Source: Gammaproteobacteria bacterium (GTDB lineage: Bacteria > Pseudomonadota > Gammaproteobacteria > Magnimaribacterales > AG-339-G14). From it: 50,032 nt of DNA. Positions 41,226 to 43,806 of the stretch are shown here, in pieces (the first letter of the stretch is position 1; every line of letters begins with the position of its first letter). Both the position numbers and the translations under genes were made by a program. The stretch lies in contig QOPF01000009.1 of the NCBI GenBank assembly GCA_003331625.1, positions 1 through 50,032 on the forward strand, in the 5' to 3' direction. A model generated the notes under the pieces. The model was not told the DNA's origin, searched no databases, and saw only the letters and a program-made list of their open reading frames with translations.

Positions 41226-42197
41226 ATGAAAGCATACGTTTGTAGAGAATTTGGTCCAGTGGACTCACACAAAGTAGAAGAAATAGAAGATCCTCGTGCT
41301 GAACCCGGCATGGTCATCATGGATGTTAAAGCAGCGGGCGTAAGCTTTCCTGATGTGCTCATTGTTCAAGGAAAATATCAGTTTCAACCTCCCTTTCCAT
41401 TTTCTCCAGGTGGAGAAGTAGCAGGAATTGTTACAGAGATTGGTGAAGGCGTTACAGATTGGAAAGTTGGAGATCGGGCTATAGCAATGACTGGAAATGG
41501 TGGAATAGCTGAAAAAGTTGCTGCATATGCAGCTACTTTAATGCCTTTGCCAGAATCTATGGGCTTTAAAGATGGTGCTGCTTTCCCTCTAAATTATGGA
41601 ACCACTTACTACGCTCTTAAGCAAAGAGGTGAGCTTAAGCCAGGAGAAACGCTTTTGGTAACTGGTGCCGGTGGCGGTGTTGGAACCACTGCTATTGAAA
41701 TAGGTAAGGCAATGGGAGCTAGAGTTATTGCCGCTGCAAGCAACCAAGAAAAACTAGATATAGCTAAGAGACTTGGTGCAGATGAAGTAGTTAATTATGG
41801 TGATGGAGAATTAAAAGAAAAAGTTAAAGCTCTGACTGACGGACAAGGAGCTGATGTAATTTATGATGCAGTTGGAGGAGACATTTTTATGCAATGCATG
41901 AGATGCATTAATTGGAAAGGTAGAGTCTTGGTCATTGGTTTTCCTGCTGGAATCCCGGCGGTGCCAACTAACTTGGCTTTATTGAAAGGATGCTCAATTG
42001 TAGGAGTTTTTTGGGGAAGATTTACTGGGACAGAGCCCGAAGAAAACGCAAAAAACTTTGATGAGTTATTTGCCCTTCATGCTGAGGGCAAGCTAAAACC
42101 TGAAATTACCAAAAGCTATTCTTTAGATGAAGCTATTGTCGCCATCAAGTCTTTAGAAGATAGAACGGCTACAGGAAAAGTTGTAATAGAGATATAA
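41226..42197 (+). CDS. NADPH:quinone oxidoreductase (MDR family)
   Basis: A 323-residue zinc-free quinone oxidoreductase. The N-domain begins MKAYVCREFGPVDSH, F-P-D-V-L-I-x-x-G-x-Y near 49-60 is the substrate-side motif, and VTGAGGGVGTTAIEIGKAMG near 141-160 is the NADP Rossmann motif with the following GADEVVNY. Members reduce quinones or enones using NADPH. GGAGAAAA precedes the ATG. A strong terminator ends the transcript 5 bases after the stop. Confidence 0.9.
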   Translation: MKAYVCREFGPVDSHKVEEIEDPRAEPGMVIMDVKAAGVSFPDVLIVQGKYQFQPPFPFSPGGEVAGIVTEIGEGVTDWKVGDRAIAMTGNGGIAEKVAAYAATLMPLPESMGFKDGAAFPLNYGTTYYALKQRGELKPGETLLVTGAGGGVGTTAIEIGKAMGARVIAAASNQEKLDIAKRLGADEVVNYGDGELKEKVKALTDGQGADVIYDAVGGDIFMQCMRCINWKGRVLVIGFPAGIPAVPTNLALLKGCSIVGVFWGRFTGTEPEENAKNFDELFALHAEGKLKPEITKSYSLDEAIVAIKSLEDRTATGKVVIEI

Positions 42198-42202
42198 AAA
42201 AA

Positions 42203-42228
42203 AGGAGGCATAAGCCTCCTTTTTTTTT
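42203..42228. terminator. Bidirectional intrinsic terminator
   Basis: AGGAGGC (42203-42209), loop ATAA, GCCTCCT (42214-42220), then T-run 42221-42228, with an A-run on the left side. It lies between the quinone oxidoreductase and the convergent small membrane protein ending at 42239. Confidence 0.9.
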
Positions 42229-42238
42229 GACAGATTAT

Positions 42239-42658
42239 TTACTCTTTAGGGCCTGGCGCTGTCCACATACCGCCAATAAGACCAACAAGTATTGCCAATA
42301 CAAATACTATTCCAATTGGATCGGAAGGTATTAAGCCTGGCGTCATATATTGAGTTGCTCCCATACTATCGACGAACTGTTGCATTCCACCCGTCAACTC
42401 CTCTCCGGTCTCAGAGACTGCAAGAGCCCAGTTATTAGTGGTTGAAGCAGCAAATGAAAAGGTGTTCGATACAAAAGCTACTACGCAAAGTGATAGCACT
42501 GAATGCAATACTTTTCCAAAAGTATTAGCGCCATATATATATGCATTTGATACACCTCTAAACATCATCCATAAAAGAATGACATTAGCTATAAGGTATA
42601 AACCATTTAATTGCATGACTGCAACATATGATTGATTTAAAAGTGATATTTGTTCCAT
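42239..42658 (-). CDS. Small three-helix membrane protein, paralogue 2 of an apparently Fur-controlled pair
   Basis: A 139-residue protein with three hydrophobic helices (about 17-35, 48-72 and 112-132). It shares with the upstream neighbour an IANVILLW/IATVLLIW helix, NTFGK at 45-49 (NLFGK at exactly 45-49 in the paralogue), an NNWALAVSE/TNWVITARS segment, and a [IM]WT[AP] end. It lacks cysteines that would suggest a cofactor. AGGAGAAAAA precedes the ATG. It lies 22 bases after paralogue 1, so it is in the same operon. No family recognised. Confidence 0.68.
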   Translation of the reverse strand: MEQISLLNQSYVAVMQLNGLYLIANVILLWMMFRGVSNAYIYGANTFGKVLHSVLSLCVVAFVSNTFSFAASTTNNWALAVSETGEELTGGMQQFVDSMGATQYMTPGLIPSDPIGIVFVLAILVGLIGGMWTAPGPKE

Positions 42659-42680
42659 ATTTTTCTCCTAAAATATTAAG

Positions 42681-43076
42681 TTATTTTTTTGGCGTCCAAA
42701 TCTGAGCCAGAATTATTATTGCCACTATAGCTAAAAGAACCATAGCTCCTGTTGTTGGAGTATTAGGCGGAACAGTTGTCCCGACATACTCAATAAAACC
42801 TACTGCGGTTTCAGATTTATCTTCCAAAGAATCCAAACTTCTCGCTGTAATTACCCAATTTGTAACTGCGTTAGTCCATTGCATGAAAGAAGCAGCAAGA
42901 ACACTTAAGCCAAAAGCTGTTGAAACTAGCTTTCCAAAAAGATTTGTTTCATCAGAAGCTCTCGTAGCTGCTGCAACTCTTAGAGCAAGCCATATTAAAA
43001 GCACAGTTGCTATGAAGTTTAGACCATCTCCTATTCTATTAGAGCTCCAAAGAGTCCATATTTGATATTCATCCAT
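42681..43076 (-). CDS. Small three-helix membrane protein, paralogue 1, behind a Fur-box-like operator
   Basis: A 131-residue protein with hydrophobic helices at about 18-36, 46-72 and 108-127. N-terminal WTLWSSNRIGDG precedes the first helix; NLFGK sits at 45-49. The loop after helix 2 is acidic (SLEDKSET). It is the first gene of the pair and follows a perfect TGAGAAT-A-ATTCTCA palindrome at 43104-43118 and a -10-like TATAAT, so iron-dependent control is likely (inference). GGGAGA lies before the ATG. Function unknown; the arrangement suggests a role under iron limitation. Confidence 0.68.
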   Translation of the reverse strand: MDEYQIWTLWSSNRIGDGLNFIATVLLIWLALRVAAATRASDETNLFGKLVSTAFGLSVLAASFMQWTNAVTNWVITARSLDSLEDKSETAVGFIEYVGTTVPPNTPTTGAMVLLAIVAIIILAQIWTPKK

Positions 43077-43103
43077 GATTTTTTTCTCCCAAAAAAAAGT
43101 TAA

Positions 43104-43118
43104 TGAGAATAATTCTCA
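43104..43118 (-). promoter_or_regulatory. Fur-box-like operator
   Basis: TGAGAAT (43104-43110), A, ATTCTCA (43112-43118) is a perfect 7-1-7 palindrome. The Fur consensus in gammaproteobacteria is TGATAAT-n-ATTATCA with TGAGAAT-n-ATTCTCA a frequent variant. It lies 28-42 bases upstream of the 131-residue protein and directly downstream of the -10 hexamer, where a repressor would block the start site. Confidence 0.65.
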
Positions 43119-43124
43119 ATTATA
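43119..43124 (-). promoter_or_regulatory. -10 element of the small membrane protein pair
   Basis: TATAAT on the minus strand (plus-strand ATTATA at 43119-43124) sits immediately next to the Fur-like palindrome. The -35 region (around 43142-43147, ATTTAT) is weak. Transcription would start inside the palindrome, about 35 bases before the ATG. Confidence 0.5.
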
Positions 43125-43167
43125 ACTATATAATAGTTTCTATAAATTTTGAAATAAAATAATTTTA

Positions 43168-43806
43168 CTAATTAAAATTTACGATGCTTGTCAAGACTTC
43201 TGACATCTTGTCCGGTGTGTGCGGAGACTTGAAGAATCCAAAATAATTTCCTTCTGGATCGATAACGGCTAAATTCATACTATGATCCATGTCGTAGCTT
43301 GAATTGTTAGAGTTCACAACAGGGACAAAAGGCAGAGTTAAGTCTGTCGCCAATTTGTAAATTATTTCTATTTTTCCTGCAATTCCAGAAAAGTTAGGGT
43401 TAAACGCTTTAGCATATTGTTGCATTTTTTCTGGAGTATCTCGGTCAGGATCTATAGAGATCATTCTAAAATTTACTCTGGAAGATACTTCGGGAGATAA
43501 TTGACTATTAGCCATTGCCATTTTTTTCATCGTCATAGGACACATGTCTGGGCAAGAGGCAAAACCTAAAAATAATATGTCCCAAGACCCTTTTAAATCT
43601 TCATTAGTAAACTTATCTGAGCCATCAATTAACTCAAAAGTATTGAGCTGTCTTGTACGAACTAACTTATAAAATCCAATTTGCTTATATTCTTCTGCTG
43701 TTAGCTCTTTGGGCGCAATTGTTGAATAAACAAACAAGCCCGCTACCATCGATACAATTAATAGGCATGATGCAACGGTAATTCTTATGGATCTTTTGTT
43801 GTTCAT
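43168..43806 (-). CDS. SCO1/SenC family copper chaperone
   Basis: A 212-residue membrane-anchored thioredoxin-fold protein (helix about 9-28) that delivers copper to the CuA site of cytochrome c oxidase. The copper ligands are C85 and C89 in FASCPDMCPMT and a His in MDHSMNL near 172. IDPDRDTPE follows the family pattern. It is the last gene of the oxidase assembly cluster, overlapping ctaB by 4 bases. Downstream, 91 bases separate it from the Fur-box-associated genes. Confidence 0.92.
   Translation of the reverse strand: MNNKRSIRITVASCLLIVSMVAGLFVYSTIAPKELTAEEYKQIGFYKLVRTRQLNTFELIDGSDKFTNEDLKGSWDILFLGFASCPDMCPMTMKKMAMANSQLSPEVSSRVNFRMISIDPDRDTPEKMQQYAKAFNPNFSGIAGKIEIIYKLATDLTLPFVPVVNSNNSSYDMDHSMNLAVIDPEGNYFGFFKSPHTPDKMSEVLTSIVNFN

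Follow-up and report, generated by a model that had tools for sequence, protein, structure and literature searches.

Here, we report that two adjacent genes for small membrane proteins in a SAR86-type genome very probably form a Fur-regulated operon, and that the protein family to which they belong is seen only in SAR86. In our full proposal, Fur would repress a variable, sometimes exchanged array of such genes, and the products would be accessory to iron uptake; taken as a whole, we hold this statement to be evenly balanced between right and wrong. The genes lie in a stretch of 50,032 nucleotides (the window), to which coordinates refer. The source genome is 1.09 Mb in 11 contigs and 92.5% complete. 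Within SAR86, f1 to f4 are family labels and g1 to g4 genus labels (the source genome belongs to f1 and g1); genomes carry G-numbers and the loci taken for comparison L-numbers.

The first gene (42681..43076, minus strand), recognized from its ORF, a profile match and an AlphaFold model, encodes a membrane protein of 131 residues with three predicted spans. Directly 3' of it in the ORF listing, on the same minus strand, is a gene for a protein of 139 residues (42239..42658; ORF, own-genome and pairwise searches, profile and model). The two proteins share 27% identity in a search of their own genome (E = 1.7e-4), match in a pairwise comparison (E = 2e-5), and are both matched by a single family profile (E = 1.7e-43 and 1.7e-38). 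Read side by side, NLFGK in the 131-residue protein and NTFGK in the 139-residue protein both occupy residues 45-49. Judged by these similarities the genes are paralogues, and the ORFs, sequence and searches bear out their description as an adjacent pair in the initial annotation. A third profile match in the genome (E = 0.04, inside a 455-codon frame) was taken as noise. Close copies of the 131-residue protein (84-85% identity) come from uncultured SAR86 cluster bacteria.

The pair is bounded by a SCO1/SenC gene (43168..43806, minus strand) and by a convergent gene for a zinc-binding-dehydrogenase/quinone-oxidoreductase-like protein (41226..42197, plus strand). SCO lies upstream in 38 of the 39 f1 main loci and is the next gene upstream in 30 of them; in eight g3 loci other genes intervene between SCO and the array, and one further contig ends. 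The quinone-oxidoreductase-like gene adjoins the array in all 39. An inverted repeat, GGAGGC-ATAA-GCCTCC with runs of A and T (42196..42228, no strand; noticed on reading the sequence), could serve as a terminator in both directions, separating the pair from the quinone oxidoreductase gene; it was absent from the output of a terminator scan. The median cross-genus identity of the quinone-oxidoreductase-like gene in f1 is 0.85, compared with 0.57 for SCO and 0.52 for gshA. Its recent transfer was considered and rejected, as saturation at its fourfold sites is close to that in the other flanking genes. In f2, a gene that falls distantly into its sequence cluster (0.41-0.43) is found near the array.

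By profile, the family occurs in 74 of 101 SAR86 genomes, the source genome included, and in all 40 f1 genomes. In a class-wide sample it was found in four of 369 genomes (again counting the source genome), all of the source genome's order. Members are 125-145 residues long with three predicted spans. Across 79 members, Pfam, NCBIfam, PHROGs and PADLOC gave no consistent match above cut-off, only scattered weak ones, the widest being Colicin_V (9 of 79 members, best E = 0.001). Among PDB sequences the profile had one weak match, to photosystem I apoprotein A2 (E = 0.0024). A Foldseek search of the PDB with the model of the 131-residue protein returned a best E of 0.57, and in structural comparison its best hit (Z 8.9, rmsd 3.8 over 105 residues) was a designed channel, which scored no better than unrelated bundles. 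No phage record matched the 139-residue protein, and viral contigs, searched with short peptide patterns that find close relatives only, held no relative of either protein. The earlier statement that the proteins have no known family therefore holds for the curated families, PDB sequences, phage records and defence profiles searched.

The AlphaFold models of both proteins have the same predicted layout of four helices (131 residues: 3-40, 46-82, 89-98 and 109-127, pLDDT 92.8; 139 residues: 2-42, 46-82, 90-99 and 114-132, pLDDT 95.6), three of which are taken as membrane spans from the hydrophobicity of each column. From hydrophobicity and charge per alignment column (79 members), we infer that the amino terminus lies outside, as does the second loop, which is acidic, and that the first loop (with R33 and K49) and the basic carboxyl end are inside. 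W29, R33, K49 and W127 are nearly invariant, and all four would lie near the inner face. Histidine and cysteine make up 0.28% and 0.53% of residues in the family alignment, and no column conserves either: in the best column for each residue, His reaches 12, Cys 20 and internal Met 30 of the 79 members. It is therefore unlikely that the proteins bind haem or iron directly by way of His or Cys, and the alignment shows no conserved metal ligand. Haem anchors of the SdhC/D or cytochrome b561 kind are expected to have a conserved transmembrane histidine, which this family lacks. Haem handling, which had been suggested for the pair, is thus unsupported and was rejected as the main reading.

Upstream of the first gene is a perfect 15-bp palindrome, TGAGAATAATTCTCA (43104..43118, minus strand), predicted to be a Fur box from its exact match, its conservation and its occurrence at iron genes. 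As originally described, it has no mismatch and abuts a minus-strand TATAAT. That TATAAT (43124-43119) and TATAGT (43130-43125) are possible -10 elements from a consensus scan (43119..43130, minus strand), although promoter-like sites in that scan were no commoner than in shuffled sequence (four, against a mean of 4.1). On our own reading of upstream regions, most orthologues from g1 and g4 have an ATATAGT-like element ahead of the box, which the TATAGT of the window resembles. With either -10 element, the box would cover or abut the transcription start. An Rfam scan found nothing. The form TGAGAAT-A-ATTCTCA is a common variant of the Fur box in gammaproteobacteria; our literature search found no paper that states this. 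Fur sites can be read as a 7-1-7 inverted repeat, according to the accessible text of one report (PMC11353095).

A pattern scan of the window gave six other matches, each with three mismatches, a total equal to chance. The palindrome itself exceeds chance because the exact 15-mer occurs at 36 places in 25 of 61 SAR86 genomes and the reversed control pattern at none. Twelve of these places are in f1: 11 at the array operon and one, the only other in the source genome, at C6:25501 between a gene for a TonB siderophore receptor and one for FTR1, where a canonical TGATAATGATTATCA lies 28 bases from the exact box. The FTR1 scores above its Pfam cut-off; NCBIfam scores for the receptor and the permease are strong, yet below the strict cut-offs of those models. 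The remaining 24 places are in families other than f1, and of the 14 that we read, seven precede a TonB receptor gene, six FTR1 and one a gene for a periplasmic solute-binding protein. Thus, 13 of 14 stand before genes for TonB receptors or FTR1, as would be expected if the 15-mer is a Fur box. Broader scans of the source genome were uninformative, both with a loose Fur pattern (131 places against 101 for the control) and with the strict pattern at up to two mismatches (15 against 13); 11 of the 12 weaker sites in the strict scan fall inside genes.

The source genome encodes a single Fur-family protein (PF01475), and its score against NCBIfam PRK09462, the ferric uptake regulator (179.5 bits, cut-off 146), identifies it as a true Fur. 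Three f3 genomes (G062, G065 and G074) encode an additional Fur-family protein with a weaker score (55-64 bits), which may be Zur- or PerR-like. If a regulator other than Fur used the palindrome, the iron link would be indirect, and the operon boxes do keep the outer TGAGA...TCTCA best around a variable centre, unlike the canonical TGATAAT-N-ATTATCA. However, the same 15-mer stands before TonB receptor and FTR1 genes and adjoins a canonical Fur site, and the source genome has no second Fur-family protein; we consider such a regulator very improbable.

The C6 cluster of siderophore receptor and FTR1 adjoins a gene for 5-aminolevulinate synthase of the C4 pathway (3742-5022 of L127, which is C6:18000-34000 of the source genome; TIGR01821, 547.7 bits, cut-off 338.6), accompanied by hemE-, hemB- and hemC-like genes. 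Most gammaproteobacteria use the C5 route.

From 71 genomes with a match (the source genome included), 80 loci were taken, in which iterated hmmsearch identified 143 family members; a box was scored at 12 or more matches of 14. Absence of the palindrome before orthologues had been named as one observation that would refute the initial annotation; it is present in 30 of the 39 f1 main loci, 35-50 bases before the start codon. Only two of 2706 other 120-base windows of those loci reach a score of 12, and none reaches 13. The genomes are species representatives, many of them incomplete, and related genomes are not independent, so that the independent events behind the 30 of 39 are fewer than this figure suggests. 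By genus, the box precedes the array in 15 of 16 g1, all seven g2, all eight g4 and none of eight g3 genomes; the g1 exception, G008, has only a half-site on our own reading. Two secondary f1 loci (L053 and L059) have no box and are excluded from the f1 counts. Within f1 arrays, the 44 gaps between genes all score 10 or lower, and one box therefore serves the whole array.

Outside f1, a box scoring at least 12 lies within 120 bases in four of eight f2 genomes, and a ninth (G046) has TGATAAC-T-ATTATCA on our own reading, with no site passing for the TGAGAAT form. In two f2 loci (L100 and L126, from G052 and G100) two family genes are divergent with one common box between them; the arrays of f1 are tandem. 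No box precedes family genes in f3 (0 of 23 loci) or f4 (0 of 8), that is, in none of 31 loci together. Three f4 loci score 12 of 14 at -11 (GGATAATTATTATGA) in a rescan with a 300-base window that included the canonical variant, and these were read as ribosome site plus start codon.

The genus g3 lacks the box both at the array (L066, L069, L072, L075, L078, L081, L084 and L086) and at FTR1 (L171-L177). Upstream of FTR1, a box was found in none of seven g3 genomes against all 10 from other f1 genera, and in f3 in all three that were fetched of eight; shuffled sequence reaches the FTR1-box score in seven of 400 trials. Loss of Fur as the cause was rejected, as Fur was matched in eight of nine g3 genomes, the exception (G039) being 60% complete, and the stretch GLATVYRVLTQFES is identical to that of the source genome's Fur in the six g3 Fur proteins read. 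The g3 Fur regulon may use another site or may have shrunk. Across f1, five of 40 genomes have no Fur match, each of them at most 88% complete.

The conserved box, the sites at iron genes and the true Fur support well the control of the operon by Fur, which we regard as very probable; the derepression at low iron that had originally been suggested would follow from it. With iron plentiful, Fe-Fur would occupy the palindrome at the transcription start and block it. When iron is short, both proteins would be made alongside the siderophore receptor and the FTR1 permease that carry the same box. We infer, then, repression with iron and induction without it.

The boxless f3, f4 and g3 mean that the basic job of the family need not be linked to iron. 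Its members could be housekeeping membrane proteins of SAR86 that have come under Fur in some lineages without a direct iron role, and the relatives without a box are what such proteins would leave. That 30 of the 39 f1 loci, with arrays that differ greatly, retain the box argues against this explanation, which we consider unlikely.

The f1 operon holds one to four family genes between SCO and the quinone-oxidoreductase-like gene. Grouping members into types at 48% identity by single linkage (group A is loose, with a least identity of 0.31) distinguishes 25 arrays in the 39 f1 loci: 12 in 16 g1 genomes, eight in eight g4, five in eight g3 and one in seven g2. From these comparisons, a species-variable array of one to four paralogues is highly probable. 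The clade of the window's first gene takes the leading position in all 22 arrays that contain it, in a family tree built on few alignment columns. Copies of one group within a genus have median identities of 0.58-0.72, compared with 0.84-0.97 for SCO and 0.76-0.86 for gshA. The array types are under purifying selection: no positive selection was seen in 74 within-type pairs (median dN/dS 0.076, maximum 0.17), a set that excludes pairs below 75% identity or with dS outside 0.05-1.5 and so covers within-type divergence only. The comparison genes gave 0.022 (quinone oxidoreductase), 0.045 (SCO) and 0.088 (gshA). Two things had been missed in the initial annotation: the two genes are one form of an array whose make-up varies, and g3, f3 and f4 are without the box.

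Some cassettes appear to have moved between genera. Seven cross-genus genome pairs were chosen first for high identity, and four of them showed a signal of exchange. G014 (g1) has cassettes in common with G018 and G021 (g4) at 91-96% identity; substitutions affect 0.31-0.44 of their fourfold sites, compared with 0.58-0.73 in six flanking genes (quinone oxidoreductase, SCO, gshA, pckA, ctaB and ctaA); between G027 (g4) and G005 and G012 (g1) the values are 0.30-0.38 against 0.56-0.72. No such signal was seen at fourfold sites for G024-G031, G006-G031 or G026-G038. The SCO on the G014 contig is g1-like (82-89% identity to two g1 genomes, 58% to g4), which makes a chimera less likely, although the G014 genome has a completeness of 59%. 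Among 544 cross-genus genome pairs, 209 cassette pairs were eligible; 17 are significant at p < 0.01 and three after Bonferroni correction (G012-G027, G014-G018 and G014-G021), which the other 206 fail. In protein comparisons, a cassette exceeds all the flanks compared by 0.1 or more in identity in only one of the 544 genome pairs. Exchange between genera, with at least two likely events, is thus probable on the substitution patterns; it would be rare, perhaps limited to those two. As the main source of array differences it is unsupported, with three of 209 pairs passing, and gain and loss must therefore explain most of the variation.

The initial annotation also pointed to the adjoining haem/copper oxidase cluster. 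That neighbourhood is constant within f1, but relatives in f2, f3 and f4 sit elsewhere. With SCO and cta genes adjoining the array in f1 and a Fur-type box upstream, the proteins might alter, or stand in for, components of the oxidase or another iron-rich complex when iron is low. However, because the neighbourhood is specific to f1 a role in the cytochrome oxidase cluster is weakened, and the proteins have no haem ligand; we think this function quite unlikely.

Of the component for iron or haem handling proposed at the outset, the haem part is unsupported for want of a conserved His or Cys, and for iron we tentatively propose a part in uptake. As small proteins predicted to span the inner membrane three times, the family members would be accessory to iron uptake there, each type partnering or accepting one particular periplasmic form of iron or siderophore. 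Such type-specific partnering would explain why sets of types change while each f1 species retains at least one. SAR86 has many siderophore receptor genes, according to the available portion of one study (PMC11582366). FecCD siderophore permeases, in contrast, were found in 10 of 101 SAR86 genomes, the source genome not among them, and FTR1 in 43 of 101, which for these two importers leaves the passage of siderophore iron across the inner membrane unexplained in many genomes. It is this combination of many receptors, few FecCD and a family member in each f1 genome that suggests the role in uptake. Presence in 40 of 40 f1 genomes and purifying selection on the types are consistent with it; against it, FTR1 was not found in several genomes that carry the array. 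An accessory role in inner-membrane iron uptake with type-specific partners is the most likely job that we can name, and we offer it tentatively, as somewhat short of an even chance.

The same evidence might be read in terms of protection, with each type an immunity-like protein of the inner membrane, specific for one toxin or phage that uses siderophore receptors as its way in. More fully, a combinatorial array timed by Fur would supply shields exactly when the receptors are made, and genera would sometimes trade them. The proteins are small and predicted to be in the inner membrane, their types are discrete and under purifying selection, the sets vary at one site, and array and siderophore receptor genes have the Fur box in common. 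Class II microcin immunity proteins, in the accessible part of PMC10233263, are likewise type-specific and predicted to be in the inner membrane, with 51-216 residues. However, neighbouring ORFs of at least 90 residues include no recognized toxin or exporter, PADLOC gave no match, and at least one copy in all 40 f1 genomes would be unusual for an accessory shield. Moreover, mceBA, the immunity operon of microcin E492, gave no direct response to iron or Fur in the available text of PMC6071977. Immunity of this kind is improbable, in the simple form and equally in the fuller one, and accessory iron uptake remains our preferred reading.

The exact strong box is found at just two loci of a small genome, that of the siderophore receptor and FTR1 and that of the pair. 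The position of the pair behind a box of the iron-responsive kind, and the differing sets of these proteins at the corresponding site in related species, point to an unrecognized response to iron starvation in an abundant ocean bacterium. The family is a target for learning how SAR86 moves iron across the inner membrane; alternatively, it may reveal a cost of opening siderophore receptors. Through its array types, specificity could be studied as a natural experiment. In a mostly open-access literature we recognized nothing corresponding to this SAR86 family or to a study of Fur boxes in SAR86, and the word 'Fur' is absent from the main text of PMC11582366.

Several known systems resemble the array in part. 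Class II microcin immunity proteins (Cvi and MceB) are also small, predicted inner-membrane proteins of discrete types with a link to siderophore receptors; unlike them, the SAR86 array has no recognized toxin partner but a direct Fur-type box, near-invariant residues and at least one copy in each f1 genome searched. Replacement flexible genomic islands of aquatic prokaryotes, as set out in the accessible text of PMC4033161, similarly keep a fixed place in all strains and fill it with different genes of similar function, whereas in SAR86 the changing genes form a short operon, all from a single paralogous family, under a promoter that stays in place. The hypervariable region of a SAR86 subgroup III single cell is another variable SAR86 locus, but in the available part of its description (PMC3569297) it carries genes for outer-membrane modification. 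The array also resembles the Fur regulon operons of gammaproteobacteria, with a 7-1-7 inverted repeat at the promoter, a true Fur, and a box common to siderophore receptor and FTR1 genes; the SAR86 array differs in that its products are of no described family and that the gene content driven by the box varies by species. A Fur-controlled operon is of a known kind; what is new is its content, a family seen only in SAR86 whose genes form an array of changing composition under a predicted iron switch that stays in place.
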